Assembly: GCA_016793195.1 (NCBI GenBank) | Contig: JAEUJA010000024.1 | Location: forward strand, 1-44,371 | DNA: 44,371 nt | Source of the DNA: Phycisphaerae bacterium | Lineage (GTDB): Bacteria > Planctomycetota > Phycisphaerae > Phycisphaerales > UBA1924 | Direction: 5' to 3' | Part shown: positions 13,135 through 32,877 of the stretch, in pieces | How the letters are laid out: every line of letters begins with the position of its first letter | Numbering within the stretch: the stretch's first letter is position 1 | The notes under the pieces: model-generated | The model's input: only the letters and a program-made list of their open reading frames with translations | What the model was told of the DNA's origin: nothing | Databases searched by the model: none | Position numbers and translations under genes: made by a program

Positions 13135-15153
13135 ATGAACAATGGCAAGAGCGTCACGATCGCGACCCTCGTCGCGGTGTGTGGGTTGTTGGTCGGCATC
13201 AACACCGCGTCGGCCCAGGTCGCGGGCCATCGCTGGGTCGATTCGCCCGCGCTCCCCACGCCCCCCAGCCACGAGGAGGTTCTCTCGATCGATTCCGGCC
13301 TGGTCGAGGCGCCCGCCGACGGCGAGGGCCTCCAGGCGGTCTGGGGCACGATCGTTGAGTCCAAGAACGCCCCGTGGCTGCGCCTGGCGTTCGAGTCGCT
13401 TTCGCTCTCGGGCGACCCCGCCAACGAGAATGCGTCGCGCCTCAAGATCACCTCGCTGCTTGACGGCGGGGTGCAATGGCTCAACGCCGAGACCGCGGGC
13501 CAGTGGCGCCTGACCTCCGCGTTTATGAACGGCGAGGCCGTGCTCGTCGAGCTGTTCGCGGCCCCGGGCACCGGGCCCAGCCGCGTCGTGATGACCAAGG
13601 TCACCGTCGGCGAAGACGGGCCGGACCAGCGGAGCATCTGCGGCACGGTCGACAACCGCGTGCTCAGCTTTGACGACCGCAACGCGCGCCACTCGGTCGG
13701 CTGCAGCTCCTGGGTCATCAACGACCTGAACTCCATGTTCATGACCGCCGGGCACTGCGGCACATCGGGTGGGCACGTCATGCAGTTCAAGGTTCCGCTC
13801 TCCACCGCGAGCGGCGGCTTGGTGAACCCCCCGCCCGAGCACCAGTACACGGTCGAAGCCACCAGCGTTCAGGGCGTCAACGGCGGCATCGGTAACGACT
13901 GGGGCTACTTCGGCGTCTCCGCCAACTCCAACACCGGCTTCACCCCTTTCCAGTCCTACGGCCTGCGCCACGTCCTCGGAAACGCCGGCGCGCCCAGCGG
14001 GCACACCATCCGCATCACGGGCTACGGCACGGTCTCTTCGCCCGTCTCTCCCACCTGGAATCAGGTGCAGAAGACGCACACCGGTTCATACACCGCGCTG
14101 GTCGGCACCAACGTGCAATACGCCGTCGACACAACCGGCGGAAACTCCGGGTCCTGCGTCCTCAACGACACCACCGGCTTTGCCATCGGCGTTCACACCC
14201 ACGCCGGCTGCTCGTCCTCCGGCGGCGCTAATAACGGCACCGCGGTCCAGCTCGCCAGCCTCCAGAACGCCCTCAACAACCCCACCGGCATCTGCAAGTC
14301 CGGCAAGGGCACGCCCACCGGGAACCTCTTTGTCGCCGGCGACCTCGCCAATAACTTCGGCACTCTGAACACCACAACCGGCAACTTCGCCAAACGCGGC
14401 GAAAAGGCCGCCCAGTTCCAGGGGCTTACCTCCGACTGGAACCTCGGCGTGCTGTACGCGATCGATACGAGCCGCAGGCTCTACTCGATCAACGCCGCCA
14501 CCGCCGCCGTCACGCTCAAGGGCACCGTCACCGGCACTTCGCTCACCATCAACGCCCTGGGCTACAACCCGCGCACCGGCGTCATGTACGCCTATTCCGC
14601 CGGCACCGGCCAGCTCATGACCATCAACATGTCCACCCTTGTCGCCGCCAACCTCGGCGCCGCTCAAGGCGGCAACGTCGGCGGCCTCGAATGGGACACC
14701 ACCAGCGAGCAACTCGTCGGACTCAACGACCAGACCAGCGGCACGCAGCTCGTCCGCATCAACACCTCCACCGGCGTTCGCACCGTCGTCGGCACGCTCG
14801 GCGCCAGCATCACCGATTGCAACGGCCTGGCCTATCGCGACGTTGACAACAGCTACTACACCATCAACGCCGCCAACGAGCAGTTGCTCCGCGTCAACAA
14901 GACCACGGGCGTCGCCACCAGCGTCGGTTCGACCGGCGGCCTTTTCGGCGCGCAATTCGGCCTGGCCGCCCTCAACACCCGCCCGCCCTGCCCGCCCGAC
15001 CTCAACAACGACGGCTTCGTCAACGGCGACGACTACGACCTCGTCACCGACGCCTTTGACATCGGCAGCGCCGCCGCCGACTACAACGACGATGGATTCG
15101 TCAACGGCGACGACTACGACGCCTTCGCGGAGGACTTCGAGGCCGGGTGCTGA
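13135..15153 (+). CDS. Secreted trypsin-like serine protease with GC-terminal dockerin-like module
   Basis: 672 aa, ATG at 13135 after AAGGGAG. A signal peptide (1-~27) ends around NTASAQ. A propeptide-like region leads to a chymotrypsin-fold protease: catalytic His207 in FMTAGHCGT, Asp255 in GNDWGYFGV and Ser338 in DTTGGNSGSC, with Cys pairs around them. Residues ~395-615 are a beta-rich repeat domain (LYAIDTSRRLYSINAAT and similar), like DUF4394/propeller-type domains. The last 54 residues are the two-repeat EF-hand/dockerin-like module ending in GC. The architecture suggests an exported protease retained at the cell surface. It stands apart from the five-gene cluster at 25-33 kb that shares the module. 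Confidence 0.88.
   Translation: MNNGKSVTIATLVAVCGLLVGINTASAQVAGHRWVDSPALPTPPSHEEVLSIDSGLVEAPADGEGLQAVWGTIVESKNAPWLRLAFESLSLSGDPANENASRLKITSLLDGGVQWLNAETAGQWRLTSAFMNGEAVLVELFAAPGTGPSRVVMTKVTVGEDGPDQRSICGTVDNRVLSFDDRNARHSVGCSSWVINDLNSMFMTAGHCGTSGGHVMQFKVPLSTASGGLVNPPPEHQYTVEATSVQGVNGGIGNDWGYFGVSANSNTGFTPFQSYGLRHVLGNAGAPSGHTIRITGYGTVSSPVSPTWNQVQKTHTGSYTALVGTNVQYAVDTTGGNSGSCVLNDTTGFAIGVHTHAGCSSSGGANNGTAVQLASLQNALNNPTGICKSGKGTPTGNLFVAGDLANNFGTLNTTTGNFAKRGEKAAQFQGLTSDWNLGVLYAIDTSRRLYSINAATAAVTLKGTVTGTSLTINALGYNPRTGVMYAYSAGTGQLMTINMSTLVAANLGAAQGGNVGGLEWDTTSEQLVGLNDQTSGTQLVRINTSTGVRTVVGTLGASITDCNGLAYRDVDNSYYTINAANEQLLRVNKTTGVATSVGSTGGLFGAQFGLAALNTRPPCPPDLNNDGFVNGDDYDLVTDAFDIGSAAADYNDDGFVNGDDYDAFAEDFEAGC
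14989..15153 (+). other. GC-terminal dockerin-like module (copy 1)
   Basis: Encodes 54 residues from the opening Cys (CPPDLNND) to the terminal Cys (EAGC). It has two DxNxDGFVNGDDYD loops, EF-hand-like calcium sites of the dockerin I type, about 30 residues apart. Confidence 0.85.
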
Positions 15154-15201
15154 CGAGCCCCGCGCGAAACGGACAAGCGTCGCGTCTTGCTGCCGTCGCC
15201 G

Positions 15202-15495
15202 CTACGACACGCGATCGATCAGTCGCAGGTTGTAGCTCTCGATCATGCCCGGGAGCAGGATCGCGTCGACCAGCCACCATGCGCCGATGACCAGGAGGCC
15301 CAAGACCCCCACCGCGACAAACGTCAGTACAAGCGAGACCACAAACAGCACCAGCATCACCAGGCCGCTGGCCATCCGCCCGGCGTACATGCGGTGGATT
15401 CCCAGTGAGCCGAGGAACCACCACAACAAATACGCGATCAAGAGCGACTTCTTCTTGGCGTCGTACACCATCGCGGCCCGGGATTGATCCGCCAT
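15202..15495 (-). CDS. TM2-domain membrane protein
   Basis: 97 aa. After a short polar start (MADQSRAAMVYDAKKKS) it has two or three hydrophobic helices: AYLLWWFLGSLGIHRMYAGR, then VMLVLFVVSLVLTFVAVGVL and LLVIGAWWLVDAILLPGMI. The LGSLGIHRMYAGR segment between helices and the closing WWLVDAILLPGMI are the hallmarks of the TM2 family (LGxFGxHRFYxGR ... DLxLIP). These small inner-membrane proteins have no established function in bacteria. The gene is convergent with the protease at 13135 and diverges from the TetR gene at 15683. Confidence 0.88.
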   Translation of the reverse strand: MADQSRAAMVYDAKKKSLLIAYLLWWFLGSLGIHRMYAGRMASGLVMLVLFVVSLVLTFVAVGVLGLLVIGAWWLVDAILLPGMIESYNLRLIDRVS

Positions 15496-15631
15496 GCAGG
15501 GTCCCTTCGGTTGGGGTCGTGTTCAGACTACCACGCCAACGCCCAGGTCACGGTTCGCCCGCCACACCGAGCATCCGATTCACGGCGGCCCGCGCCGCGT
15601 TGTGCCAGCGCCCCCCATTATGGTGCATGAA

Positions 15632-15682
15632 TTGACAATGAACCATTCGGTCGGTATGGTTTGACGTACCAACCGGTTTGTC
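15632..15682 (+). promoter_or_regulatory. Promoter with overlapping operator for the TetR gene
   Basis: TTGACA (15632-15637) and TATGGT (15655-15660) are 17 bp apart, a near-consensus sigma70 promoter. An inverted repeat ACCAT-N9-ATGGT (15642-15646/15656-15660) fills the spacer and the -10. Its centre, TCGGTCGG, resembles known TetR-family operators of the ACCGNNCGGT type. AACCGGTT just before the ATG is a second short palindrome. The layout predicts negative autoregulation. The leader is very short and no Shine-Dalgarno is visible. Confidence 0.7.
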
Positions 15683-16306
15683 ATGGATCATAATTCACCA
15701 ACTCTTGCCGACGCCAAGACTCGCCTGCTTCGAGCGGCGGTCCATGTAATTCGCGCCAAGGGTTACGCGGGGACCTCGGTTGACGAGCTGTGCAAGGCCG
15801 CGGGCGTCACCAAGGGCGCGTTCTTTCATCACTTCAAGACCAAGGAAGACCTGGCCCTCGCGGCGGTGGACCACTTCGCGTCGCAGACGGCGGGCGTCTA
15901 TGCCACGGCATCATTCAGCCAGGCGTCGGACCCGCTCGACCGCGTGCTCGGTTACATCGAGTTCCGGGGGAACCTCCTGCGCGGCGAACTCTCTGGCTGC
16001 ACATGCCTGCTGGGCACGCTGGTGCAGGAGGCGTTTGAGACGCACCCGGCGATCCGTGTCGCGTGCGACAAGCACATCGTCGAGCACGCGGCGTGGGTTG
16101 CCCGGGACATCGCCGCCGCCAAGGCGATGTATGTGCCCGACGCGCCGTGGAGCGCCGAGAGCCTGGCCTTGTGTATTCAGTCTGCGTTTCAGGGCGCGTT
16201 CGTGCTCGCCAAGGCCGCAAACTCGCCCGACGTCGGCGTGGAATGCCTCGGGCACCTGATGCGTTATGTCGAAGGGCTGTTCAGCAAGCACGAACAGAGC
16301 GACTGA
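15683..16306 (+). CDS. TetR/AcrR-family transcriptional regulator
   Basis: 207 aa. The N-terminal helix-turn-helix is clear: LLRAAVHVIRAKGYAGTS, then VDELCKAAGVTKGAFFHHF and KTKEDLALAAVDHF, as in the subgroup whose members often control oxidoreductase genes in response to electrophiles. The C-terminal ligand domain contains LSGCTCLLGTLVQEAFETHP, typical of this subgroup. A strong promoter overlapped by an inverted repeat precedes it, so autorepression is likely. There is no adjacent target gene of matching orientation: ispF is convergent and the TM2 gene diverges across 187 bp. Ligand and regulon are unknown. Confidence 0.92.
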   Translation: MDHNSPTLADAKTRLLRAAVHVIRAKGYAGTSVDELCKAAGVTKGAFFHHFKTKEDLALAAVDHFASQTAGVYATASFSQASDPLDRVLGYIEFRGNLLRGELSGCTCLLGTLVQEAFETHPAIRVACDKHIVEHAAWVARDIAAAKAMYVPDAPWSAESLALCIQSAFQGAFVLAKAANSPDVGVECLGHLMRYVEGLFSKHEQSD

Positions 16307-16349
16307 ACGGCGGGGCGTGTGCGGGGGCGTTGGCCGCGCCCTTTGGCGT

Positions 16350-16895
16350 CTAGCCCCGCCGCAGCAACACAACCGCGTGAACCTCAACCCCTTCGCCACG
16401 CCCAAGGGCGTCGAGGGTTTCGTGCGTCTTGCCCTTCACGTTCACGCGCGTCGCGTCAACCCCCAGCATCGACGCCAGGCTCGCGCGGATTTCTTCCTTG
16501 ATCGGCGACAGCCGCGGACGCTCCAGGATCACCGTCGCGTCAACGTTCACGACGCCGAACCCCATGGCCGCGGCCTTGGCGACCGCCGCCCGGAGGAACG
16601 TCCCGGAGTCGGTGCCGCGATACGCCGGGTCGGTGTCGGGGAAGAGCTGCCCGATGTCGGGCAGGGCCAGCGCCCCAAGAATCGCGTCGGTGACGGCGTG
16701 GCACAGCGCGTCGCCATCGGAATGGGCGACCAGCGGCGGCCCGCCCGGAATCCGCACGCCCCCCAGCATCATCGGGCGAGCGCCCTGCAGCGGGTTTCCC
16801 GCGCGGTGGATGTCATACCCAAGGCCCACGCGGAAATCGGGCGTGCAACTCGCAGAACCCGCGGCGGTGGCGGGCGTAGGTTCGCTTGGGCTCAT
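16350..16895 (-). CDS. ispF: 2-C-methyl-D-erythritol 2,4-cyclodiphosphate synthase (IspF)
   Basis: 181 aa, slightly longer than usual because of a ~20-residue Pro/Ala/Thr-rich N-terminus. It converts CDP-methylerythritol 2-phosphate to the cyclic diphosphate in the MEP isoprenoid pathway. Family motifs: VGLGYDIHRAG with metal ligands D28 and H30; MLGGVRIP; the block HSDGDALCHAVTDAILGA, containing the third ligand His; DIGQLFPDTDP; and GKTHETLDALGRGEGVEVHA near the end. It is not fused to IspD as in some bacteria and no other MEP gene is nearby. It is convergent with the TetR gene, ending 43 nt from it. Confidence 0.96.
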   Translation of the reverse strand: MSPSEPTPATAAGSASCTPDFRVGLGYDIHRAGNPLQGARPMMLGGVRIPGGPPLVAHSDGDALCHAVTDAILGALALPDIGQLFPDTDPAYRGTDSGTFLRAAVAKAAAMGFGVVNVDATVILERPRLSPIKEEIRASLASMLGVDATRVNVKGKTHETLDALGRGEGVEVHAVVLLRRG

Positions 16896-17066
16896 GATGC
16901 CAGTGTAACCCCGCTCGCCCCGCGGTCATGCCCGAGTGCTTTGGCCCGTGTCCAACAAGACGCCGAACATCCGTGCCGATCCGTCCGCCGGCGCTATCGA
17001 CCCCCGGCGGGCTTGGTCGATACAGTCAGTCCCCCGCCCGGCCCGGGCGGCGTTTCGGAGCCCTCG

Positions 17067-17531
17067 ATGTTGAACCTCGACCGTCGTCGCGTTCTCGCAC
17101 ACTCTTCCTGTGTCGCCCTGGCCGCGGCGTTGCTGTCGCTGGCGGGGTGCGCCACCTACACGCCCGGCGGCTCGGGCTTTTCCAACGACGCGTATACCTA
17201 CCACAGCCTGCCCCACGAGCCCAAGACGATCACCATCGTCGACACCCGCACCGGCGAGCGCTTCTGGATGTATGAGATCCCCGCGGGGCGGCAGCTGGTA
17301 GTTCGCTTCTATGAGGACCAGTACCGCGACAACGCCTACACCCCCGCCGCCATGCGCTGGCAGGAGATGCCGCTGGGGCAGAAGTACGGCACGCTGTCGA
17401 ACGTGATGGCGGTGCCCGACGCCGGATGCCGTCGCGTCGACCTCGACGTGCGCCCGGGCCCGGAGATGCCGACGACCACCGCCGACACGACGATCCAGTC
17501 GGTGGAGACCGAGGCCGGCCGCTCGTATTGA
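17067..17531 (+). CDS. Small lipoprotein of unknown function
   Basis: 154 aa. The N-terminus reads as a signal peptide, with basic DRRRVL, a hydrophobic Ala/Leu stretch, and a lipobox LAGC whose Cys28 would be lipidated. The RRR start could also be read as a weak Tat signal. The mature part is small and beta-rich (TITIVDTRTGERFWMYEIP, LVVRFYEDQYRDNAY) and ends in a Thr-rich disordered tail. The GERFWMYEIPAGRQL segment recalls small planctomycete lipoproteins of unknown role. ATG at 17067 was chosen because it gives a complete signal; the open frame upstream runs through intergenic DNA. It is followed by a GNAT gene on the same strand. Confidence 0.7.
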   Translation: MLNLDRRRVLAHSSCVALAAALLSLAGCATYTPGGSGFSNDAYTYHSLPHEPKTITIVDTRTGERFWMYEIPAGRQLVVRFYEDQYRDNAYTPAAMRWQEMPLGQKYGTLSNVMAVPDAGCRRVDLDVRPGPEMPTTTADTTIQSVETEAGRSY

Positions 17532-17633
17532 TGATGTTCTGAGCCTCGACTTGCTGCGGGTGTATTGGGGGCGCCACGCAAGACCCATCGGCGGACGCGC
17601 CGCGGTTCCAGGCCGCCCGGGAGGTCTGAGCCC

Positions 17634-18119
17634 ATGTCGAATACGCCAATCACGCCCGACCCGCCGGACACGCTGGTGGTCTCTACCGATGATTCGCTGC
17701 TGGACCTCGACGTCATTCACAGCTTTTTGTCGGCGAGCTATTGGTCGCCGGGGATCGCGCGAGAGCGGCTGGAGCGGGCCATCCGCAACTCGCTGAACTT
17801 TGGGGTGTACGACCGCGCACGGCCGCGCGTGTCCGATCCGGCCAAGGCGTCGCAGGTGGGCTTTGCCCGCGTGGTGACCGACCGGGCCACCTACGCGTAC
17901 CTGTGCGACGTGTTCGTGCTCGAATCGCACCGCGGGCGCGGCGCCTCGAAACGGCTCATGCGGGCCGTCCTGGACCACCCCGAGCTCCGGGGCCTGCGCC
18001 GGTTCTGTCTCATGACCCGCGATGCCCACGGGCTGTACGGCCAGTTCGGCTTCGGGCCCACGCCCGACCCGTCGCGGTACATGGAGCGGCTCGACCGCGA
18101 GAGCTACAAACTCCCGTGA
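17634..18119 (+). CDS. GNAT-family N-acetyltransferase
   Basis: 161 aa from the ATG at 17634, preceded by GGGAGG. It has the GNAT fold order: an N-terminal strand/helix (IHSFLSASYWSPGIARERLERAI), the central strand VGFARVVTDRATYAYLCDVFV, then motif A LESHRGRGASKRLMRAVLDH, whose RGRGAS loop binds the CoA pyrophosphate, and the C-terminal GLYGQFGFGP. The arrangement matches the small cytosolic acetyltransferases resembling YhbS/YjcF-type proteins. The acceptor is unknown. It lies between a lipoprotein gene and a DUF1569 gene on the same strand, 53 nt before the latter. Confidence 0.9.
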   Translation: MSNTPITPDPPDTLVVSTDDSLLDLDVIHSFLSASYWSPGIARERLERAIRNSLNFGVYDRARPRVSDPAKASQVGFARVVTDRATYAYLCDVFVLESHRGRGASKRLMRAVLDHPELRGLRRFCLMTRDAHGLYGQFGFGPTPDPSRYMERLDRESYKLP

Positions 18120-18172
18120 TTGTTTCCCGGCGGCGCGCCGAGCGCGGGATTGCGGCGCGGTACACTGGGCGC

Positions 18173-18670
18173 ATGGGCACGATCGACACGGGCAAGAGCA
18201 CGGACCGCAGGGCGCTCCGGTTCGGCGATTTCGCCGCGGTGACGCGCGACCTCGACGCGCTCCACGCCGCCAGCGCGGGCGGCACGCTCCGCGCCGTCGG
18301 CAATTGGTCCGCGGCCCAGGTGTTCAACCACCTGGCGGCGTTCATGGAGTATCCGTTCACCGGGTATCCGCCCGAGCTCGCAAGCCCGCCGGCGCTGGTG
18401 CGAGTTGTCATGAAGTTCATGCGCCGCAAGATGTGCTTTGGCACGATGCCCGCGGGCGTGAAGATTCCGCGCGTGAAGGGCGGCACGGTTGGCTTCGAGG
18501 AATCTCCCGCCGAGGTCGCGGAGGCGAGACTCCGGGCCGCCATCGAGAGGCTTGATCGCGAGGCGCCGACGCGTCCCAGCCCGCTCTTTGGGCCGATGTC
18601 GCACGAGGAATGGAAGGGGCTGAATCTCCGCCACTGCGAGCTGCACCTGTCGTTCTTGCACCTGCGATAG
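18173..18670 (+). CDS. DUF1569/DinB-like fold protein
   Basis: 165 aa, ATG at 18173. The helical pattern and the segments VGNWSAAQVFNHLAAFMEY, FTGYPPEL and MSHEEWKGLNLRHCELHLSF match DUF1569 proteins, which adopt the DinB/YfiT four-helix fold. The His in FNHL and the HCELH pair near the C-terminus are in the positions used for metal binding in that fold. DinB-like enzymes include metal-dependent thiol S-transferases (bacillithiol or mycothiol dependent), but no thiol cofactor gene is seen here, so activity is open. The gene follows the GNAT gene on the same strand and precedes a metal ATPase by 134 nt. Confidence 0.75.
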   Translation: MGTIDTGKSTDRRALRFGDFAAVTRDLDALHAASAGGTLRAVGNWSAAQVFNHLAAFMEYPFTGYPPELASPPALVRVVMKFMRRKMCFGTMPAGVKIPRVKGGTVGFEESPAEVAEARLRAAIERLDREAPTRPSPLFGPMSHEEWKGLNLRHCELHLSFLHLR

Positions 18671-18804
18671 GCCGCGCTTGAACACTGCTTACCGACCCGC
18701 CTCCAGAACATGGCGCGATCCGCGCCGGTGTGCGTGCGTATTGAGACTCCGTCTAACTTGGAGTTCATTCGCCCGCGTCGCCCGCCCGATCTCTACGATC
18801 ACGC

Positions 18805-20835
18805 ATGTCGCAGGCCGGCACGCCCCATCCCGTTCGCGCCACGCACGAGGCGTCGCCGCGTTCGGGCGGCTCGCTCCTTGGTTTTCTCGTGTCGCCCAAG
18901 GGAGAGCTGGCCGGCGCCATCGTCGCGGGCGCGTTCCTGCTCGCGGGCGCCGTCTTCCACACGCTGCTGAAGCGGGAGGACGCGGAGTGGCTGGTGTGGG
19001 TGAGCCTGAGCGTCGGCATGGTCTACGGCCTGCGGGCCGCGTGGCAGGCCGTCGCCCAGTGGCGCATCGATATCGACGTGCTGATGATCGTGGGCGCGGG
19101 GCTGGCGGCGTACATCGGGCACCCGGAGGAGGGCGCGCTGCTCCTCTTCCTGTTCACGCTCGCGGGCGCGCTGGAAGAACTCGCGATGCAGCGCACCAAG
19201 CGCGAGGTCGAGGCGCTCAACAAGCTCATGCCCGTTGACGCGATCGTCCGGCGCGAGGGTCAATGGGTCGAGGCCGACCCGGATTCGCTCGTCCCCGGCG
19301 AGGTCATCAAGGTCCGGCCCGGCGAGCGGGTGCCGACCGACGCGGTGGTCACCAGCGGCGCAACCTCGTTCGACCAGTCCGCGATCACCGGCGAGTCCAT
19401 GCCCCGCGGCGTCGAAGAGGGGGACGAGCTCTACGCGGGCACGATCAACACCGACGCGCCGGTCGAGGCGCGGGTGCTCCGCCCGGTGCGCGAGTCAAGC
19501 CTGCAGAAGATTTTGAACCTGGTGACCCAGGCCGCCGAGCAGCGCGAGCCCGTGCAGCGCATCATCGACCGCGTGAGCGAGCCCTACGCCCTGGGCGTGA
19601 TGGGAATCAGCTTCGCGGTGCTGATGGTGTGGTGGCTGGCGCTGGGGCGGGCGTGGTCCGACGCGCTCTACACCTCGATCACGCTGCTGATCGTCGCTTC
19701 GCCGTGCGCGCTGGTGATCGCCACGCCGACGGCGACGCTCGCCGCCATCGCCCGCGCCGCCCGGGCCGGCCTGCTCTTCAAGGGGGGCCAGGCGATCGAG
19801 CGCCTGTCGACGATCGGCGCGATCTGCTTCGACAAGACCGGCACGCTCACCATGGGCAGGCCGCAGGTGTACGAGATCCAGCCCGTGGCGTGGTCCGACC
19901 CGGCGCGCCTGCTGTCGATCGCGGCGGGGCTGGAGGCGGACTCGACGCACCCGATCGCCGCCGCCGTGCGCGACGCCGCCAGCAAGCGAGGCGCCTCGCC
20001 CGCCACCATCGGCGAACTCGGGCACATCACCGGCAAGGGCATCTCGGGCGCGATGGGCGCGGCCCGCGTGCGCCTGGGCTCTTACCCGTTCGCCGAGGAA
20101 CTCATCCCCATCTGCCTGCGGGCCCGGGTGCGTGAGCTGCTCGAACAGGCCCAGGGACGCGGGCACGTCGCCATCGTGGCGGCCCACGAGTCTCCCGACC
20201 TGCCCGCGGGCGGCGAGGCCGCCGTCATCCTCATGGCCGATCCGCCGCGCCCGGGCGCCCACGAGATCACCAAGCAACTCCACGAACTGGGCGTGCGTCC
20301 GGCCCGGATGCTCACCGGCGACAACCGGCGCACCGCCGAGCGCGTCGCGGCGGCCTTGGGCATCGACCAGGTCGATGCCGAGCTCCTTCCCGAGAACAAA
20401 GTCGAGATCGTGCGACGAATGCGCGACGAACGAAAGCACGCGGGCATGAAGTACCCGGGCGTGGCGCTCATGGGCGACGGCGTGAACGACGCGCCCGCGC
20501 TGGCGGCGGCGGACCTGGCGATCGGTATGGGCGCGATCGGCTCCGACGCCGCCCTCGAATCGTCCGATGTCGTGCTTCTGGCCGAACACCTGTCGGTCGT
20601 GCCCTGGGGTGTTGAGCTCGCGCGCCGGACGCGCACGATCGTCAAGGCCAACCTCGTGTTTGCGCTCGGCGTGATCGTGCTGATGTCGATCGCGACGCTG
20701 GTGGGCTCGCTCTTGGGGCGCGGCGTGCCGCTCTCGATCGGCGTGCTGGCGCACGAAGGTGGGACGATCCTGGTGGTCGCCAACAGCCTTCGACTGCTGC
20801 TGGTGCCGAGCCCGCGGACCACCCCGCAAAGATGA
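18805..20835 (+). CDS. P1B-4-type metal-transporting P-type ATPase
   Basis: 676 aa. The transmembrane metal motif is SPC (299-301, in IVASPCALVIATP), and the last membrane helix has HEGGT (650-654, AHEGGTILVVANSLRLL). This pair defines the P1B-4 (CoaT/CtpD-like) group that exports Co2+, Fe2+ or Zn2+. Catalytic parts are all present: actuator TGES (195-198), DKTGT with phosphorylated Asp343, an HP dipeptide in DSTHPIAAAV, and MGDGVNDAPALAAAD. There is no N-terminal Cys-rich metal-binding domain, only a 25-residue polar start. It precedes an Rrf2-type regulator by 116 nt on the same strand, which could fit iron or redox homeostasis. Confidence 0.93.
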   Translation: MSQAGTPHPVRATHEASPRSGGSLLGFLVSPKGELAGAIVAGAFLLAGAVFHTLLKREDAEWLVWVSLSVGMVYGLRAAWQAVAQWRIDIDVLMIVGAGLAAYIGHPEEGALLLFLFTLAGALEELAMQRTKREVEALNKLMPVDAIVRREGQWVEADPDSLVPGEVIKVRPGERVPTDAVVTSGATSFDQSAITGESMPRGVEEGDELYAGTINTDAPVEARVLRPVRESSLQKILNLVTQAAEQREPVQRIIDRVSEPYALGVMGISFAVLMVWWLALGRAWSDALYTSITLLIVASPCALVIATPTATLAAIARAARAGLLFKGGQAIERLSTIGAICFDKTGTLTMGRPQVYEIQPVAWSDPARLLSIAAGLEADSTHPIAAAVRDAASKRGASPATIGELGHITGKGISGAMGAARVRLGSYPFAEELIPICLRARVRELLEQAQGRGHVAIVAAHESPDLPAGGEAAVILMADPPRPGAHEITKQLHELGVRPARMLTGDNRRTAERVAAALGIDQVDAELLPENKVEIVRRMRDERKHAGMKYPGVALMGDGVNDAPALAAADLAIGMGAIGSDAALESSDVVLLAEHLSVVPWGVELARRTRTIVKANLVFALGVIVLMSIATLVGSLLGRGVPLSIGVLAHEGGTILVVANSLRLLLVPSPRTTPQR

Positions 20836-25153: not shown

Positions 25154-25318
25154 TCAGCACCCCACATCGAACGCGATCGCAAACGCGTCGTAGTCATCAC
25201 CGTTCACAAAGCCGTCCCCGTTGAAGTCCGCCGCCGCGACCGCCGCATCAAACGCGACGGCAAACGCGTCGTAATCATCGCCGTTCACAAACCCATCGAA
25301 GTTCACGTCCGCGTCACA
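25154..25318 (-). other. GC-terminal dockerin-like module (copy 2)
   Basis: 54 residues from CDADVNFDGF to FDVGC. Both loops read GFVNGDDYDAFA. Confidence 0.85.
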
Positions 25319-25912
25319 GAACGGAACGACGAACTCGACCTCAACCGTGTCGATCGTGAACTCATAATCATTCGCCCCCAGGCCGATCAGGCTCCGTTCC
25401 GGCACGAACTCAACCGAACTCAGGCCCGTCCAGTTGAGCACCACGGTGTTCATCGCGTGATCGATCTGCCCGTCGTCGTTGAGCTCATACCACTTCGTGT
25501 AGTCCTGTCCGCCGCCCGCCCGGTGCCCGACAATGGTGACCCCAGACGCCCACGACCAGCGATGGACTTCTTCCTGGTTAAAGGTGCCACCGATCTCAAA
25601 GCGGGCAAGGTTGAACGCTCGCCCGTCGACCCCAGCGATCTTCAGGACCACGTGATTGGCGCACACCAGATTCGGTGTGCCGTTGTTCACCATGGCCTGG
25701 TTGTGCTGCGGGTTGTTCTCGGGCTGGTAGTTGCCGACGATGATGTACCCGCTGGCGCTGCCGAAACTCGGCGTGAACCCAAAGCCACGATCTGTGTGAC
25801 TGCCCGTGCCATTGCCCACAATCCGCACCGGCGAAACGCGGTCAAAGTCGATGACATCCGCCACGCACGACGCCGAACCCGCCAACACCGCCAGAATAAG
25901 GACGTTCCTCAT
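25154..25912 (-). CDS. Secreted protein of unknown function with GC-terminal dockerin-like module
   Basis: 252 aa from the ATG at 25912. A signal peptide (MRNVLILAVLAGSASCVA) is followed by a beta-rich domain of unknown type (IDFDRVSPVRIVGNGTG, FEIGGTFNQEEVHRWSW, TVVLNWTGLSSVEFVPE). It resembles the beta-sandwich domains of PEP-CTERM or choice-of-anchor proteins, but I cannot name a family. The Cys within SASC might be lipidated or simply part of the signal. The last 54 residues are the Cys-to-Cys GC module. It is the last gene of the five-gene exported set on the minus strand. No enzyme motif is visible. Confidence 0.75.
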   Translation of the reverse strand: MRNVLILAVLAGSASCVADVIDFDRVSPVRIVGNGTGSHTDRGFGFTPSFGSASGYIIVGNYQPENNPQHNQAMVNNGTPNLVCANHVVLKIAGVDGRAFNLARFEIGGTFNQEEVHRWSWASGVTIVGHRAGGGQDYTKWYELNDDGQIDHAMNTVVLNWTGLSSVEFVPERSLIGLGANDYEFTIDTVEVEFVVPFCDADVNFDGFVNGDDYDAFAVAFDAAVAAADFNGDGFVNGDDYDAFAIAFDVGC

Positions 25913-26286
25913 AACACAACTCCCGCAACGGCTGCGCGGACTCGCCGCGCCGCACACGTAAAGAGGAGACGCCCATCCTCTTGATACGCCGCCGCGCTCA
26001 AAATCATCCGGATCTGACAATGGGCATCGCCCACCGCCCAACGTCCAGATGAGCGCAAAAAGAACCCGCGCCCGGAGCACGCCGAGCGCGGGTCCAGAAG
26101 AGAATCAAGATCCGACGGCCTCGGGAACCCCGATCTCCGCCGGCCGCGAACCGGGCGACGTCAATGACTGCCAAAGCTCCAACCCCGAGGCCTCTGCCCT
26201 ATCAGTAGCTCGACCGCCAGGGAGGGCGTCTGCTCTTGTGCCTTCGCGACTTCACTTCACGTCGTCCCGTCCAATCTTCCCCCCGG
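25913..26286. other. Intergenic region with a hairpin repeat
   Basis: 374 bp between two GC-module genes. It holds one GA-hairpin repeat (26208-26227) and flanking TTCGCGACTTCACTTC boilerplate. I see no gene; the short open frames here overlap the repeat text. Confidence 0.5.
26208..26227 (+). repeat. 20-nt tandem-GA hairpin repeat (copy B)
   Basis: GCTCGACCGCCAGGGAGGGC. GCTC pairs with GGGC using one T-G wobble, with the GA/GA internal loop, CC/GG and a GCCA loop as in copy A. The change C to T keeps pairing possible only in the + strand RNA. Confidence 0.75.
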
Positions 26287-26451
26287 TCAGCACCCCGCAT
26301 CAAAGGCGCTGGCGAACGCGTCGTAGTCGTCGCCATTGACGAACCCATCGCCGTTGAAGTCCGCCGCGATGTTCGCGACGTCAAAGGCGCTGGCGAACCC
26401 GTCGTAATCATCGCCGTTGATGAAGCCGTCACCGTTGAAGTCGGCGGGGCA
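26287..26451 (-). other. GC-terminal dockerin-like module (copy 3)
   Basis: 54 residues from CPADFNGDGF to FDAGC, with loops GFINGDDYD and GFVNGDDYD. Confidence 0.85.
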
Positions 26452-26928
26452 GAGGTTCGGCGGGGTTTCGAGCTGGTTGGTGACGGCCGCGCTGGTGTTG
26501 GTGAAGCACGGGTCCGTGCCCGTGGTGCCGATCAAGCCCGGGTTGTAACCGACCTGTCCGGTCATGTCGGTGCGCTCCAGCAGGATCTCGTCGCGGTTGT
26601 TCACACCATCGCCGTCCGAGTCCAAGAGCTCTACGTCCGCGATCGCCTGGGCGTTGGTGCGCCCCGCGGCGATCCGCAGGGCGATCGCCTCCTTGTAGCA
26701 ATTGCCCGGATTCCCCGTGTCGCTCGGGTGATGGCACACATAGCACTGGTTCCCCGTCGCGGCGGCCGTGCGCGACAGCAGCGTCGATCCGGGGTACCGC
26801 GCCGCGAACGCATTCTTGAGGCCATTGGTCGCGCGGGCGTCCGGCGCGGTCGCGGCCATCACAACCGCGATCGCGGCAACGGCGCCGGCGGACACGAGAA
26901 CGTTGGAACGATTGACGTGACGATTCAT
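26287..26928 (-). CDS. Secreted c-type cytochrome-like protein with GC-terminal dockerin-like module
   Basis: 213 aa from the ATG at 26928 after GGAGG. An Ala-rich signal peptide (to about residue 34, PDARA) is followed by a single CYVCH (62-66), a CxxCH haem c attachment site, with HH next to it. The surrounding region (NAFAARYPGSTLLS) is short for a full cytochrome fold. A DSDGDGVNNRDEILL stretch near residues 100-115 is a thrombospondin-3/EF-type calcium loop. The last 54 residues are the GC module. It could be an electron carrier for the peroxidase encoded next upstream (27313). The haem axial ligand is not evident. Confidence 0.8.
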   Translation of the reverse strand: MNRHVNRSNVLVSAGAVAAIAVVMAATAPDARATNGLKNAFAARYPGSTLLSRTAAATGNQCYVCHHPSDTGNPGNCYKEAIALRIAAGRTNAQAIADVELLDSDGDGVNNRDEILLERTDMTGQVGYNPGLIGTTGTDPCFTNTSAAVTNQLETPPNLCPADFNGDGFINGDDYDGFASAFDVANIAADFNGDGFVNGDDYDAFASAFDAGC

Positions 26929-27312
26929 GCTGCCTCCGAAGAATCGAAGTCGCGCGAGAAGGACCGACCAGCCGCCCCGCTCGCGCGCGGGGCTCGGTCG
27001 TGGAAGTCCGTGGGCCGCCAAACAACGACGCCCACCGTTTGAATAGAGACACGCGCGAGCCGCGCAATACACGAAAAAGAAGAAAACCACACCCATTGGT
27101 GTGGTTTTCGCGGCGTTGGGGATGGTGAGCGGGAGTCTGGGGGAAATGGCGAAGACGGGCAGCGCACCGTCACCGCATGAAGCCGCTCCGAGTGATCCGC
27201 GCCCGCCCACACATGGTCGCGTGTTCCCTCGGCCGGAAGGGCGCCTTCTTGTTCATTTCACCACATCACCGGCCCGCCACTTCTTCTTCCCTCGTGCCCG
27301 GTGCCTTGCTCC
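26929..27312. other. Intergenic region with terminator and repeat text
   Basis: 384 bp between the cytochrome-like gene and the peroxidase gene. It contains a strong terminator at 27083-27108 and, at about 27213-27312, boilerplate (GGAAGGGCGCCTTCTTG ... CTCGTGCCCGGTGCCTTGC) akin to the 3' flanks of the other GC-module genes. No coding region is visible. Confidence 0.5.
27083..27108 (-). terminator. Intrinsic terminator after the di-haem peroxidase gene
   Basis: A perfect 11-bp stem (AAAACCACACC at 27083-27093 with GGTGTGGTTTT at 27098-27108) around a CATT loop. On the minus strand it is followed by a T-rich tract (TTTTCTTCTTTTT). It ends the minus-strand transcript about 205 nt past the stop at 27313. 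Confidence 0.85.
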
Positions 27313-27480
27313 TCAGCACCCCGCCTCGAACGCACCCGCGAAGAAGTCGTAATCGTCGCCGTTCACAAAGCCGTCGGCGTTGACATCACCGCGCGGGTCG
27401 CCGCCCTCGAAATACAGGGCGAAGAGGTCATAGTCGTCGGCGTTGGTGAAGCCGTCGGAGTTGATGTCCGCCGGGCCGCA
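27313..27480 (-). other. GC-terminal dockerin-like module (copy 4)
   Basis: 55 residues from CGPADINSDG to FEAGC, one longer than the others because of an inserted Gly after the first Cys. Loops are GFTNADDYD and GFVNGDDYD. Confidence 0.85.
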
Positions 27481-29172
27481 GGGGGAAGGGCATCCCGCCG
27501 AGCCGCAGAAGACCGGGATGCGCCCGACGCTGCTGGCGGCTTGCCCGCCCGCGGCCGCGGGATCATCGACGAACCACTGCGCGAACAACACCTGGCCGGT
27601 GTCCGCCTCGCCATCGACCAGGGCCCAGTGCTGCGTCGCCACGCCCGCGCCGGCCCCGGCGCCGCCGGCGCTGGTGACATCAAACCAGCGCGTCGGCGTG
27701 ATGCGCCCGCCCACCGGCGGCGAGAGCGAGATCCCAAGCCGCAGCGTCGCGCCGCCCAGCACCCGACCCGCGCCGATCCGATACTCGGTGTTGCCGAGCA
27801 TGGCCGGGGCGTCGACGACGATCTGAGGCACGATCCCGCCCGTGCCCGGCACACCGCCGCCGATCACCGTCGCTCGATCCGTCGGCCGCTCGCCGAACAG
27901 CACCGGACGATCGAACGGGAACGTCGCGTTGGCGACCCGCGCGTCGGTCAGGCCGTTCTGCAGGAAGTCCTGCACGTCCGCCGCGGCCTGGGGCGGGAGC
28001 TGGATCGTCGGGATCAGCGGGTCCTGGTTCTGCGGGAACTGCGGCGGAGCGCCCTGCCCGCGCGCGTACCAGCGCAGCACGTCGGTCAGCGTCTGGAACT
28101 GCCCGTTGTGCATGAACGTCCGTTTCAGGCCCACGTTCCGCAGGCCCGGCACCTTGAAGCGCCCCGCGTCGACCGCCAGCCCCGTCACCGCCTGGCGTCC
28201 GTTGTCCTCCGCGATCGGGCGCAGCCCGATGTTGCGGAACCCGTTGCCCGTGAACAGGTCGTCCACCAGGGTGTGGCACGCGTTGCAGTGCGCCGGCTGC
28301 CCCTGGAAAATCTGCAAGCCTCGCTGCTGGGCCGGCGTCAGGGCGTTCGTCTGCCCGTCGCGGAAGCGGTCATACGGCGAATCGTCCGAGATCAGCGTGC
28401 GCTCATACGTCGCGATCGCAAACGCAATCCGCGTCGTCGTGATCGACTCGTCGCCGAACGCGCGGGCGAAGAGTTCGCCATAGCTCGGCTTGTCGTCCAG
28501 CGCCGCCGCCACGTCCGCCGGCAGACTCGTCGCCAGGTTCAAGGGATGCACGCGCGACAGCCGCTCGGCCAGGTTCGCAAAGCTCGTCCCCGCGTGGGCC
28601 ATCTCGATGGTGTTCACGAGCGGCTGGAGCGATTGGCTCTCCAGCGCCCCGCCGTTCTGGATCGCCGTCTCACCCGTCTCGGGGTCAACAAACCGCGACG
28701 TTGCACGCCCGTCCCAGAACAGATTGGGCGCGAACGCGGCGTTGATCGGCGAGTTCGCCGTCCGCCCCGTGATCTGCGGATTGAGCGCGAAGACCACATC
28801 AGCCTCGTAGTTGTTGATCGAGTCCGACTTCACCACGCCCGGCGAGCCCTGGATGTCGTCCGGCGTGTTCAGAATGTTGTCGTCGCCCGGGTGGCGCGCC
28901 AAGCGCGGATCGGCCCCCGCCCGCGGCATCGCGTGGCACGTCGCGCACGCCACCGTGTTCGACGTCGACATCTGCTCGTCAAAGAACAGAATCTTCCCCA
29001 GCACCCGCTTCTCTTCCGAGAACGGATTCTCGACCGGGAACACCACCGGCGGCACGTCGGCGATCGCCACATGCGCCAGCCCAAGCGCCCCCAGCGCCAG
29101 CACACCCACCACCGACCCAACAAGCGAGCCGCGGCCCGGGCGCGCCGCCACCTTGCAACCAGCCTTTGACAT
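27313..29172 (-). CDS. Di-haem cytochrome c peroxidase (MauG/CcpA-type) with GC-terminal dockerin-like module
   Basis: 619 aa from the ATG at 29172 after GGAGG. The N-terminal hydrophobic stretch (20-39) is a signal peptide. Two haem sites, CATCH (76-80) and CNACH (296-300), are the two-domain layout of bacterial cytochrome c peroxidases, which reduce H2O2 with electrons from a small cytochrome. GKILFFDEQMS and YGELFARAFGDE are family segments. A ~200-residue beta-rich extension follows, then the GC module (55 residues). Peroxidase and MauG-like oxygenase roles cannot be separated here. The neighbouring single-haem protein at 26287 is a possible electron donor. Confidence 0.92.
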   Translation of the reverse strand: MSKAGCKVAARPGRGSLVGSVVGVLALGALGLAHVAIADVPPVVFPVENPFSEEKRVLGKILFFDEQMSTSNTVACATCHAMPRAGADPRLARHPGDDNILNTPDDIQGSPGVVKSDSINNYEADVVFALNPQITGRTANSPINAAFAPNLFWDGRATSRFVDPETGETAIQNGGALESQSLQPLVNTIEMAHAGTSFANLAERLSRVHPLNLATSLPADVAAALDDKPSYGELFARAFGDESITTTRIAFAIATYERTLISDDSPYDRFRDGQTNALTPAQQRGLQIFQGQPAHCNACHTLVDDLFTGNGFRNIGLRPIAEDNGRQAVTGLAVDAGRFKVPGLRNVGLKRTFMHNGQFQTLTDVLRWYARGQGAPPQFPQNQDPLIPTIQLPPQAAADVQDFLQNGLTDARVANATFPFDRPVLFGERPTDRATVIGGGVPGTGGIVPQIVVDAPAMLGNTEYRIGAGRVLGGATLRLGISLSPPVGGRITPTRWFDVTSAGGAGAGAGVATQHWALVDGEADTGQVLFAQWFVDDPAAAGGQAASSVGRIPVFCGSAGCPSPCGPADINSDGFTNADDYDLFALYFEGGDPRGDVNADGFVNGDDYDFFAGAFEAGC

Positions 29173-29488
29173 AAAGCCTCCGCGTTGTCGCCCGGCCATC
29201 CCACACGGCGTCCGCACCGGGCGTGTGCCCCAGCCCAACGCACGGCCAGGGCCGCTTATTGCCAGTCCCCGCCCAACGCGGAAAAATCATGTCGACTCAA
29301 CTTCAGCCCTGGCCGCAGCCCCGCGTGGCAGGCGTCCCCGCGCCGTCCCGGTTCCGCGTCTCCCTGACTCCGCGACCCACCGTCGCTTGGTCACCCCGTC
29401 ACTCGATCACTCGAACACACCACCGCACCAACACTTCTTGTCTTCCCCTGATGCCCGATGCCTGATGCCCAGCGCCTGTTGCCTCTCC
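29173..29488. other. Intergenic region with repeat text
   Basis: 316 bp. About 29440-29488 is GATGCCCGATGCCTGATGCCCAGC boilerplate that runs directly into the GC-module gene end at 29489. The rest is pyrimidine-rich and shows no gene or clear promoter. Confidence 0.5.
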
Positions 29489-29653
29489 TCAGCACCCCAC
29501 ATCAAAGTGGTCCGCGAACTCGTCGTAGTCGTTGCCGTTGACGTACCCGTCGCTGTTGAAGTCCGCGGCCTCGTCGGCCTCATCAAACTTCGCGGCAAAG
29601 AGATCGTAATCGTCGCCGTCGACATCGCCGTCGAGGCTGAAGTCGGCCGGGCA
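29489..29653 (-). other. GC-terminal dockerin-like module (copy 5)
   Basis: 54 residues from CPADFSLDGD to FDVGC. The 47 bases at 29493-29539 are identical to 30668-30714 in copy 6. Confidence 0.85.
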
Positions 29654-30343
29654 CACCGACCGCACCTCGAAACGCACGTCGTCGGCGAAGTGGCCATCAA
29701 ACTCCTCGCCGTACACATAGTCGCGGTGGACGTTCTCCTTCGCCCGCACGAACACATACACGAACGTCGAATCCGACTGCCACGGAAGATCGAGGTCGAG
29801 CACGACCTCAGCCCGCTCCCACGTTTCCGGCGAGTCGTCGGACATCAGCGACACCTGGCCCTCGGCGTCCCAGTAACGGTAGTTCAGGCACCAGGTGCGG
29901 AACCCCTCAAGCGTTGGCCGATCGAATGCACGCACCGTGATGAGAAACTCCGTATCGGTATGCGCATCCCCCGCGATCCGGTTGAAGGCCGCGGACACGA
30001 CCAGACGGGCGTTCCCCGAGTCAAGGAGATCGCGCACGGGCGCAAGATCGATCAACTGCCCGATGCAGGCCAGCTCTCCCCAGGCCCAGGGGTCTGTTCG
30101 CTGGCAGAACGGCGCCGTCTCCTGAAACTTCAGCATCTTGACGCCCTCGAGCGGCGTGATGCCAAGTGTCGGCCCGACCGCGGTCCCGCCGTCAACACTC
30201 CACACGCCAAACTCCTCCACGATCTCGCTGAGGATCGGCCCGGACTCAAAGCCAGGGTCGACGAGCTGCTGGGCGTGCGCGCCGCTCATCAGAACGAGCA
30301 AGCATCCGGCCGCGACGAACCCGAGCGATTTGGGCGTTCCCAT
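29489..30343 (-). CDS. Secreted protein of unknown function with GC-terminal dockerin-like module
   Basis: 284 aa from the ATG at 30343 with AAGGTGG upstream. The signal peptide is MGTPKSLGFVAAGCLLVLMS to about AHAQ. The mature protein starts QQLVDPGFESG, the opening typical of carbohydrate-binding-like beta-sandwich domains. Strands such as VVSAAFNRIAGD and FLITVRAFDRP continue in that style. A FVYVFVRAKENVHRDYVYG segment and several Cys are present. I cannot name an enzyme or ligand. The last 54 residues are the GC module, and its final third is almost identical to that of the protease at 30664, also at DNA level. Confidence 0.75.
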   Translation of the reverse strand: MGTPKSLGFVAAGCLLVLMSGAHAQQLVDPGFESGPILSEIVEEFGVWSVDGGTAVGPTLGITPLEGVKMLKFQETAPFCQRTDPWAWGELACIGQLIDLAPVRDLLDSGNARLVVSAAFNRIAGDAHTDTEFLITVRAFDRPTLEGFRTWCLNYRYWDAEGQVSLMSDDSPETWERAEVVLDLDLPWQSDSTFVYVFVRAKENVHRDYVYGEEFDGHFADDVRFEVRSVCPADFSLDGDVDGDDYDLFAAKFDEADEAADFNSDGYVNGNDYDEFADHFDVGC

Positions 30344-30663
30344 CGTAATACCACCTTTCCAACCCAGACACCGGACACACGGCGCCGCGCATGGCGCGAC
30401 TCGCGCCCGCCGGCCGCCACGTGACAACACCGCCCCACGGTCGGTTGCCCGCCGCGAGGGAAGCGTCTTCTGCAATTCACTTCGTCACTTCGTGGCTTCG
30501 CCGCCCAACCGCCCAGTCACTATGAGGCTTTCCCCCGATGTCCGAGGCCTTTGCTTTGTCAGAAGCCCAATCGCGAGGCAGGGCGGCTTCTGCCGTCCAC
30601 TCCGTCACCCCATCACTTCTTCGCTTCCCCTAGTGCCAGGTGCCCAGTGCCCGATGCCTCTCC
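30344..30663. other. Intergenic region with hairpin and repeat text
   Basis: 320 bp. It holds the GA-hairpin at 30565-30584, a degenerate relative near 30445-30465, CTTCGTCACTTCGTGGCTTC text, and at 30630-30663 the CCAGTGCCCGATGCCTCTCC tail shared by other GC-module genes. No gene seen. Confidence 0.5.
30565..30584 (+). repeat. 20-nt tandem-GA hairpin repeat (copy C)
   Basis: GCCCAATCGCGAGGCAGGGC. It has the same 4-2-2-4-2-2-4 layout, with AA/CA in place of GA/GA, TC/GG (one wobble) and a GCGA loop of GNRA type. Confidence 0.7.
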
Positions 30664-30828
30664 TCAACACCCCACATCAAAGTGGTCCGCGAACTCGTCG
30701 TAGTCGTTGCCGTTCACGAATCCGTCCCCGTTGAAGTCCGCGCCGGGGTCGGCGGCATCGAACAGCGCCGCGAACTCGTCGTAGTCGTTGCCGTTGACGA
30801 ACCCGTCGCCGTTGAAGTCGGCCGGGCA
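30664..30828 (-). other. GC-terminal dockerin-like module (copy 6)
   Basis: 54 residues from CPADFNGDGF to FDVGC. Both loops read GFVNGNDYDEFA, with Asn for Asp at one ligand position, as in the second loop of copy 5. Confidence 0.85.
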
Positions 30829-32877
30829 GGGGTTCACGAGCGAGAACGGCCTGGAGACCGCGAAGAAGACCTTGCCCACCGCGTCAACGCGGACCCGCGC
30901 GGCGGAGGTCGAGCGGATCGGGAAGAGCACGCTGGCCGTGCCATTGTTCGCAAACGTGCCCAGCACGCTCGGCCAGGTGACGCCGTTGTCGGTTGACAGG
31001 CGAATCTCGACATTGGCCGCGGAGATCGGGGCCGCGTTGGTGTTTCCAACGGTCCACGTCACGTTCGTGGGGTAGCCAGGGCCGGAGTTGAGCACCGCGC
31101 CCTCGGCGGGCCCGGTGACGCCGAACGCCGACGTGCCGTTGGCGATGGTGAGGTTGACCATGCTCGATGTGGCCGTTGCGCCCACGCCCGTGTGGTTGTC
31201 GCGCACCACCACGCGGAACTTGCGATTGACGCCCGTCACGCTCGGCAAGCGCTCGCCGCGGACAGAGCCGCCCGCCAGCACGCCGCCCATGTTCGGGAAG
31301 ACGCGCCACGAATCGAGCGTCGGCGGGAAAACCCGGAACAGCGAGCCCTGCCCATTGTCCTCCGAGCCCTCGCCCTCCAGCGGGCGGCGCACGCCGTTAT
31401 CGAACTGCTCCCACGAATACGTCAACAGATCGGCGTCCGCGTCGGTTGCGCTGGCCGTCAAGGTGAACGGCGTATTCGGCGGGATCGGCTGGTTGGGCGT
31501 GACAAACGTGATCACCGGCACGTCGTTGCTCGACCCGCTCGACGCCAGGCACGTCGCAAAGGGCAGGAACGCCTTCATCTCCTCGATCGAGCCGTGATGG
31601 AAGAACGGATCGGCGAATTGCACGATGTTGTCCGAGGGCGGCGCGTCGCCGACCGGGCAGCCGCCGGCATAGGCCATGGGCGTGGAGCCCGAGCCCGCCT
31701 CCCAGGCGGTGGAGAGGTTGGCGTTGTTGCCGCAACGCCCGCGCGTGCCGCTAAAGGTGTGGTTGGCGCCGAACTGGTGTCCGAACTCGTGGATGACGAC
31801 GAGGGCGGAGAAGGGATCGGCGTCGCCGCCGCGCGGGATGCCCGAGACGCCGCCGTTGCCGCTGCACACGTCCCAGAGGTACGCCACGCCGCCGGCGATG
31901 CGAGTCACGCAATGGGCAATGTCCCATGTAGAAGAAAGATTCGAGTTCAGCGCGCCCGGGAGAGCGCTGAGCACGGGCCCGGAGCAGTCCGAGCCACCCA
32001 GGCCGTCGCACGTCGTGGGAAATGGATCGGTGTCGGGATTGAAGAACACCACCTGATCGTTATCGCTCACGAGGTTGAAATGCACGCCCAGGTCGGCCTC
32101 GTACACCACGTTGCTGCGCGCGATGACGGTGACGATCGCCGCGAGCGGGTCGGCGAGGTTGGGTGCGTGCCCCTGGATGGTCGAGTGGTGCACGCCGTAT
32201 TCGCCCGTGCAGGCCATCGCCACGCTCGCGGTGAGCAAGTTCTGCGTCGCGCGAGTGGCCGGGCCGCCCGGCGCGTCGAGTTTCGGCCTGCGTGCGCCGT
32301 GCTTGTCCTGATCCGTGTGGCATGTCCAATCGATGTCGGCGTTCAGATCGCGCAGGTAGTACGACATCAGCGTCGTCGCGTCGCCGGACCACGCCGGATC
32401 GATCATCCACGCTTCGCCCTCGACCGTCCGCAGCATCGCCGTCACGCCCCGCGGCAAGACTTCAAGCCTTCCCGTCGCGCTCCCGTCCGCCGCGCGGACG
32501 ATGAACGTCTGGAACGCCGGATACCGCGCCGCCAGCGCCGGCTCCATCACAGGCGAGCGAGCGATGAAGGCGTCGACGAGCTGACCATCCGGCGTCGGCA
32601 ACTGCACCCGCAGGCCGTAGGCGATCAGATCGCGCGACAAGTCCTGCTCCGGCGCGCCCGCGACCGCCGCCGCCAGCCTGTCATGGTCCGAGAAGACCAC
32701 CGAGCCCGCGATCGGCCGCGGTCCCTCCACAGACCCGACAAACGGCGGGACGTCCGACGCCCGCTCGACGAACGAAAAGAACTGCGCGCTCGCCGCCCGG
32801 GCCAGCGTCATCGCGCACAGACCCGAAAAACAAACCATCCGCGCCACGCCGCCACGCGCCATCAAACTGCTCAGCAT
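30664..32877 (-). CDS. Secreted M12-type (reprolysin-like) metalloprotease with GC-terminal dockerin-like module
   Basis: 737 aa from the ATG at 32877 with GGAG upstream. The signal peptide ends around ARAASAQ. A propeptide-like region is followed by a metzincin catalytic domain: HEFGHQFGANH (363-373) is the zinc site HExxHxxGxxH, and the nearby SGSTPMAYAG supplies a Met-turn. Residues ~460-680 are Ig/CUB-like beta domains (FTLTASATDADADLLTYSW, VNLTIANG), then the GC module. It probably cleaves extracellular or surface proteins and is retained by the C-terminal module. It is the first gene of the exported minus-strand set, and diverges from lysS across 185 bp. Confidence 0.9.
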   Translation of the reverse strand: MLSSLMARGGVARMVCFSGLCAMTLARAASAQFFSFVERASDVPPFVGSVEGPRPIAGSVVFSDHDRLAAAVAGAPEQDLSRDLIAYGLRVQLPTPDGQLVDAFIARSPVMEPALAARYPAFQTFIVRAADGSATGRLEVLPRGVTAMLRTVEGEAWMIDPAWSGDATTLMSYYLRDLNADIDWTCHTDQDKHGARRPKLDAPGGPATRATQNLLTASVAMACTGEYGVHHSTIQGHAPNLADPLAAIVTVIARSNVVYEADLGVHFNLVSDNDQVVFFNPDTDPFPTTCDGLGGSDCSGPVLSALPGALNSNLSSTWDIAHCVTRIAGGVAYLWDVCSGNGGVSGIPRGGDADPFSALVVIHEFGHQFGANHTFSGTRGRCGNNANLSTAWEAGSGSTPMAYAGGCPVGDAPPSDNIVQFADPFFHHGSIEEMKAFLPFATCLASSGSSNDVPVITFVTPNQPIPPNTPFTLTASATDADADLLTYSWEQFDNGVRRPLEGEGSEDNGQGSLFRVFPPTLDSWRVFPNMGGVLAGGSVRGERLPSVTGVNRKFRVVVRDNHTGVGATATSSMVNLTIANGTSAFGVTGPAEGAVLNSGPGYPTNVTWTVGNTNAAPISAANVEIRLSTDNGVTWPSVLGTFANNGTASVLFPIRSTSAARVRVDAVGKVFFAVSRPFSLVNPCPADFNGDGFVNGNDYDEFAALFDAADPGADFNGDGFVNGNDYDEFADHFDVGC

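Follow-up and report, generated by a model that had tools for sequence, protein, structure and literature searches.

In known dockerins, the head and the tail of the domain are in contact through an aromatic-proline 'intramolecular clasp' (PMC4728124, PMC5934362), and for freshwater Phycisphaerae a 'planctosome' has been proposed in which M12B and M14 peptidases that carry dockerins attach to cohesin adaptors (PMC6461901). Here we analyze a C-terminal, dockerin-like module bracketed by two cysteines that is shared by six proteins encoded between positions 13,135 and 32,877 of a 44,371-nucleotide contig (JAEUJA010000024.1 of assembly GCA_016793195.1; hereafter, the window) from a Phycisphaerae bacterium. 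The module belongs to a catalogued family, NCBIfam NF041540 ('GC-type dockerin domain-anchored protein'), so that the 'GC-type dockerin' model named in the original prediction, which was made from the letters of the window alone, is real and matches the window modules; a literature search on this name found no paper. Beyond the catalogue entry, the results described here concern the Cys pair as a conserved feature, a wider and more variable spread of the module, its alternation with PEP-CTERM signals, and the fact that neither a receptor nor an oxidase could be recognised. We consider it rather likely that this Cys-clasped dockerin is a genome-wide docking tag that binds a common, lineage-specific receptor, the clasp being most likely a disulfide.

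The genome that contains the window comprises 3.59 Mb in 342 contigs and is 84% complete. Relatives within the Phycisphaerales are denoted by family labels (f1, f2, f3, f81 and f83), with f3 used as the outgroup. Module boundaries were set by patterns, and signal peptides were judged crudely, namely, by eye for the six window proteins and by a rough rule for the counts of Cys in mature proteins.

The dockerin-like module and its cysteine pair

The translations of all six window proteins end exactly in Gly-Cys, as the original prediction stated (AGC in the proteins at 13135, 26287 and 27313; VGC in those at 25154, 29489 and 30664), and the span from the first to the last Cys is 54 residues in five of them and 55 in the 27313 protein. 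Each module contains two loops of the DxNxDGxxN(G/A)xDYD type (loop 1 of the 29489 protein is DFSLDGDVDGDDYD), with a Phe-rich helix after each. The NF041540 alignment extends over the full length of the model (1-67 of 67) for all six modules, with the curated cut-off passed by four of the six when scored by open frame and by two of the six as printed proteins. The same model has 114 matches in the genome, so that the six window copies are part of a set of about a hundred. Among the 86 copies of 54 residues that retain both Cys, D4, D15, D17, D31, D42 and D44 are 100% conserved, conservation reaches 93-100% for the loop aspartates together with several Phe, Ala and Asn positions, and the final GC never varies; the number of matches and the fully conserved Asp columns exclude chance.

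Of the 73 modules that were aligned, 64 are matched by Pfam Dockerin_1 (PF00404; E-values up to 0.1, the best being 2.7e-9), and a window representative taken alone scores 20, just below the gathering score of 22.9. A profile built from the 73 sequences retrieves PDB dockerins as the top matches (E 5.1e-7). The AlphaFold model of a 62-residue tail, which has the module at 30667..30828 as its first row, as does the alignment (A1), reaches a mean pLDDT (predicted local distance difference test) of 85.5, with helices at 21-32 and 48-60. Dockerins, both cohesin-bound and free, lead the structural matches to this model and make up almost every row, covering 48-54 residues with model positions 7-61 aligned; among structures other than dockerins and EF-hands, there are no matches of note. 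By these computations, the module is a double calcium loop-helix of the type I dockerin kind, with a dockerin-like predicted fold, and, as far as sequence can tell, carries the residues of calcium loops.

The original prediction singled out the Cys pair at the edges of the module, and this pair is indeed its conserved, informative part. We gathered 304 modules from about 25 genomes and, leaving out G271 L200 and MAG_20 L064 (parsing errors or unrelated) and G284 (f3 outgroup), obtained a cleaned set of 302, of which 288 have both Cys, five only the first, six only the last, and three neither, compared to 0.24 expected under independence (Fisher p ~1e-3, which is indicative only because the sequences are related). 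Two of the modules that lack both Cys (G308 L158 and G269 L196) are well conserved in the rest of their sequence, so that the loss is specific to the pair. Of the five modules with the first Cys only, four (L117, L134, L095 and L096) are divergent and have an extra Cys about 10 residues upstream; the fifth (L093:11100-11306) stops two codons early (...EEFEN*), keeping Cys1 but not the GC. No Cys other than the module pair is found in 44 of 252 mature proteins. A second Cys pair is present in the linker in several lineages (G271, G280, ACE_PLA1/G279, OFTM382 and G213), where one Cys closes repeat 1 (after helix 1) and the other opens repeat 2 (before loop 2); given the pseudo-twofold symmetry of the dockerin fold, this pair is the equivalent of the outer one.

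The Cys located just before loop 1 and the Cys at, or at most two residues from, the C-terminus would form a disulfide that staples the head of the module to its tail and would be the covalent counterpart of the hydrophobic clasp in cellulosomal dockerins. Given the head-tail contact in known dockerins and the data on the Cys pair, such an intramodular disulfide is the simplest reading and the most likely one, and the module may also depend on calcium. The disulfide clamp envisaged in the original prediction thus fits the dockerin fold, the joint presence of the two Cys and the proteins that have only these Cys, and is weakened by the apparent lack of an oxidase. No Pfam VKOR match was detected in six f1 genomes and no DsbB in eight, in a search that was confined to these two families (f1 genomes G000, G095, G002, G034, G291, G308, G207 and G214, several of them 99-100% complete), whereas VKOR or DsbB is often present in f81, f3 and f2 genomes. 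Accordingly, either f1 has another oxidase or the thiols meet another fate, and it is here that the clasp model is weakest. Other points also weigh against it: the structural Z scores (4-5, up to 5.3) are modest, as they would be for any module of 60 residues; the coupling of the two Cys is imperfect, considering the six modules with only the terminal Cys and the five with only Cys1; and the even/odd parity of Cys in proteins with further Cys (106/102) lends no support, whole-protein parity being uninformative once Cys-free bodies are set aside. The exported proteins of the eight f1 genomes are rich in cysteine.

The module is shared by the relatives of the window's organism, on which the original prediction depended: it is present in 36 of 36 f1 genomes and 32 of 35 f81 genomes, and weakly in five others of the Phycisphaerales. 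In this wider set, loop inserts stretch the module from 54 to about 79 residues, and profile comparison links it to forms from other genera that have longer loops (E 5.9e-16) and to a Cys-less form in f3 (E 1.6e-7). In one locus (L081), tandem neighbouring genes carry modules of 54, 56 and 58 residues, the divergent ones having longer linkers. In another (L085), a 313-residue open reading frame on the minus strand ends in a half-module with the single loop CPADFNGDGFVNGDDYDLFAEHFEEGC, that is, one Cys-loop-helix-GC unit alone.

Genome-specific consensus and exchange with other C-terminal signals

Modules of unrelated proteins within one genome have mean identities of 0.46-0.80 (0.64 in the window's own genome), compared to about 0.3-0.5 between most genera; the within-genome likeness is inflated for the relatives, where regions were picked around the best model matches, the own genome being sampled nearly completely. 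The orthologue of the window metallopeptidase (30664) in SJ353 has a module that is 63% identical to that of the window protein and 80% identical to the modules of other SJ353 proteins; for the MAG-53 orthologue, the respective values are 46% and 87% (one paralogue only). Thus, the module sequence follows the genome and not the gene that carries it. Codon identity at shared residues is 0.70, compared to 0.62 expected from the bodies, indicating that recent copying of DNA explains little and that the likeness is kept mainly at the amino acid level.

Homologous bodies end in the Cys-bracketed module in f1 and f81, and in a Cys-less dockerin followed by PEP-CTERM in f3. Specifically, two f3 genomes encode 20 PEP-CTERM proteins in which a Cys-less dockerin double loop directly precedes the PEP-CTERM signal (the single Cys flagged among them lies inside a loop), and several of these bodies are homologous to f1 proteins with the Cys-bracketed end (36% identity over 368 residues, 32% over 360 and 34% over 381). 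The relatives of the M12B body (31-35% identity), which belong to different phyla, carry still other tails, namely, a Bacteroidetes-type C-terminal domain, by eye of the type IX secretion system kind, a GlyGly-CTERM-like tail (Paraglaciecola) and RTX-like repeats (Rhodopirellula). Across genomes, the counts of PEP-CTERM and of the module are mostly reciprocal: there are 46-135 PEP-CTERM matches in five f2 and f3 genomes and eight in a sixth (G245), compared to 1-22 in those of f1 and f81 that have the module. These counts, together with the swaps of tails on homologous bodies, fit the contention of the original prediction that the module is a tag separate from PEP-CTERM; a literature search for dockerin combined with PEP-CTERM found nothing. 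Exosortase is present in all 121 Phycisphaerales genomes sampled, so that it has not been lost and does not track the module; as a candidate partner, it is uninformative.

Under the docking reading, the type I dockerin-like module would act as a genome-wide C-terminal tag on Sec-exported proteins, probably binding a single receptor, shared by the tagged proteins and specific to the lineage, on the cell surface or in the matrix. Alternatively, the module could be a mobile cap that stabilises the protein end without any receptor, with the genus consensus produced by copying of the module DNA between genes. Two-loop calcium modules can stabilise folds, the codon identity between copies slightly exceeds the expectation, and the cohesin searches described below found no receptor. 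Nevertheless, codons stay near the background of the bodies while the amino acids are strongly conserved, about 100 unrelated bodies share one consensus per genome, and the module fills the slot that PEP-CTERM and other tails hold on homologous bodies, which makes a receptor-free cap unlikely.

Candidate partners and the terminal Gly-Cys

The cohesin model (PF00963) has no match in the window's own, 84% complete genome and a single weak match in 36 f1 genomes, which weighs against the docking reading, and seven matches in 35 f81 genomes; the near-absence from f1 speaks against cohesin as a general partner, although divergent cohesins may have escaped this model. The search for a co-occurring receptor or processing enzyme that the original prediction proposed thus yielded neither, cohesin being nearly absent from f1 and exosortase universal, hence not tracking the module. 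Part of f81 encodes a multi-copy family that combines cohesin, HYR-like and beta parts with an atypical dockerin not ending in Cys (L245, L246, L248 and L250-L260) and resembles the adaptor of the proposed planctosome. A custom profile of such cohesin-adaptor proteins, drawn from f81 together with a single f1 genome, had no strong match in f1. We regard it as quite unlikely that the module belongs to a cohesin-based planctosome of the kind proposed in PMC6461901: the M12B peptidase with the module in the window and the f81 family are in keeping with that proposal, but each of the 36 f1 genomes carries the module, cohesin and strong matches to the adaptor profile being all but missing there, and most of the tagged window proteins are not peptidases.

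The GC ending was examined in the collected modules. In the window's own genus, 93 of the 94 copies that have the last Cys end exactly in GC, and one copy in the own genome ends in GCP. Endings in other lineages include GCP, GCE, GACP and LCP; residues follow the last Cys in five of five modules in G282, a single residue does so in 13 of 14 in G214, and most of the few modules sampled in f81 have residues after it. The Gly before the last Cys is universal in the window's genus, frequent in f1 and not conserved in f81. None of the six window proteins has a transmembrane helix or a hydrophobic or basic tail (Arg cluster) after the motif, so they lack the tripartite PEP-CTERM-like arrangement of motif, transmembrane helix and basic tail. 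Judging by the sequences, then, the conserved feature is the Cys pair and the terminal GC is not. The trailing residues, the variable Gly and the lack of a membrane-spanning or basic tail are easier to reconcile with a folded clasp than with an enzyme that recognises the C-terminus, and they give no support to the suggestion of the original prediction that the terminal Cys is an anchor. Overall, the observation made in that prediction stands, whereas its interpretation is partly supported, for the clamp and the separate tag and not for the anchor.

MYXO-CTERM and other Cys-containing sorting signals are tripartite (motif, transmembrane segment and basic end) and are processed in the membrane, by myxosortase in the case of MYXO-CTERM. 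That an enzyme joins, lipidates or cleaves the window proteins at the terminal Gly-Cys in a similar manner is the most doubtful of the alternatives, for although the nearly uniform GC end in the own genus, the six modules with the terminal but not the first Cys and the lack of a recognised f1 oxidase would agree with it, many lineages have one or two residues beyond the last Cys, the Gly before it is variable, Cys1 is as conserved as the last Cys and partly lost together with it, there is no transmembrane helix or Arg cluster, and exosortase occurs throughout the order irrespective of the module.

A more specific form of the docking reading, which we advance only tentatively, is a non-cohesin, lineage-specific surface docking system in which the tag, carried by some 100 or more exported proteins of a genome, would be recognised by a receptor that co-evolves with it in each genus, and which would have replaced the PEP-CTERM/exosortase route of the f2 and f3 type in f1 and f81. 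If the docking reading is correct, one docking address would serve roughly 100 or more proteins per genome within a widespread and mostly uncultured order of planctomycetes; the genus-specific consensus would imply orthogonal tag-receptor pairs, which could help to identify the receptor through co-variation and could be put to use in engineering; and the alternation with PEP-CTERM on homologous bodies would represent a natural experiment on the swapping of surface-attachment systems.

The tagged proteins of the window and comparison with known systems

All six window proteins have a signal-peptide-like N-terminus. The protein encoded on the plus strand (13135..15153; module of 54 residues from Cys1 to the terminal Cys, 14989..15150) starts with MNNGKSVTIATLVAVCGLLVGINTASAQ and is trypsin-like, with triad-like motifs visible by eye (TAGHC and GNSGS) and no Pfam peptidase match. 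The remaining five are encoded on the minus strand. The protein at 25154..25912 (54-residue module, 25157..25318), with the start inferred at MRNVLILAVLAG, has a body that resembles the PEP-CTERM family NF038120 with a score below the cut-off. The protein at 26287..26928 (54-residue module, 26290..26451; start inferred at MNRHVNRSN) contains a CxxCH haem-like motif (CYVCHH). These are followed by a MauG/di-haem cytochrome c peroxidase-like protein (27313..29172; PF03150, E 1.9e-38; 55-residue module, 27316..27480), a protein without a family match in model searches (29489..30343; 54-residue module, 29492..29653), and an M12B reprolysin-like metallopeptidase with the motif HEFGHQFGANH (30664..32877; PF13583, E 5.9e-22; 54-residue module, 30667..30828). 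The original prediction of different front domains holds for the metzincin and the haem peroxidase, which Pfam recovers, and by eye for the trypsin; no model supports the beta-sandwich. Two P-type ATPases (E1-E2) lie on either side of the cluster (window positions 18805-20835, plus strand, and 34787-37000, minus strand), and DnaA adjoins a 1338-residue protein that ends in a beta-lactamase-fold domain (5756-7375 and 1450-5466, respectively).

With cellulosomal type I dockerins (PF00404; 2ozn, 6kgc and 1ohz), the module shares the tandem DxNxDGxxNxxD loop-helix repeats, the predicted fold, the C-terminal position and the many copies per genome, but where those dockerins have the aromatic/proline clasp it has a Cys pair, the bodies are not mainly glycosidases, and no cohesin partner was recognised in f1. 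The planctosome is similar in its host class, in the dockerins on M12B peptidases and in the non-cellulosomal use; it differs in that f1 is without the cohesin adaptor and in that neither the Cys clasp nor genome-wide use is part of the proposal as set out in the pertinent passages of PMC6461901. The NF041540 model ends in GC, whereas the wider set examined here keeps the Cys pair without the GC ending and includes loop inserts and four-Cys forms. Signals of the MYXO-CTERM type are likewise C-terminal and numerous and have an invariant Cys, but the present module appears to be a folded calcium domain with two Cys. Finally, the PEP-CTERM/exosortase signal resembles the module in ending many diverse exported proteins per genome, including homologous bodies in f3, and differs in its transmembrane helix and Arg cluster and in the mostly reciprocal genome counts; in f3, PEP-CTERM comes after the Cys-less dockerin rather than replacing it.

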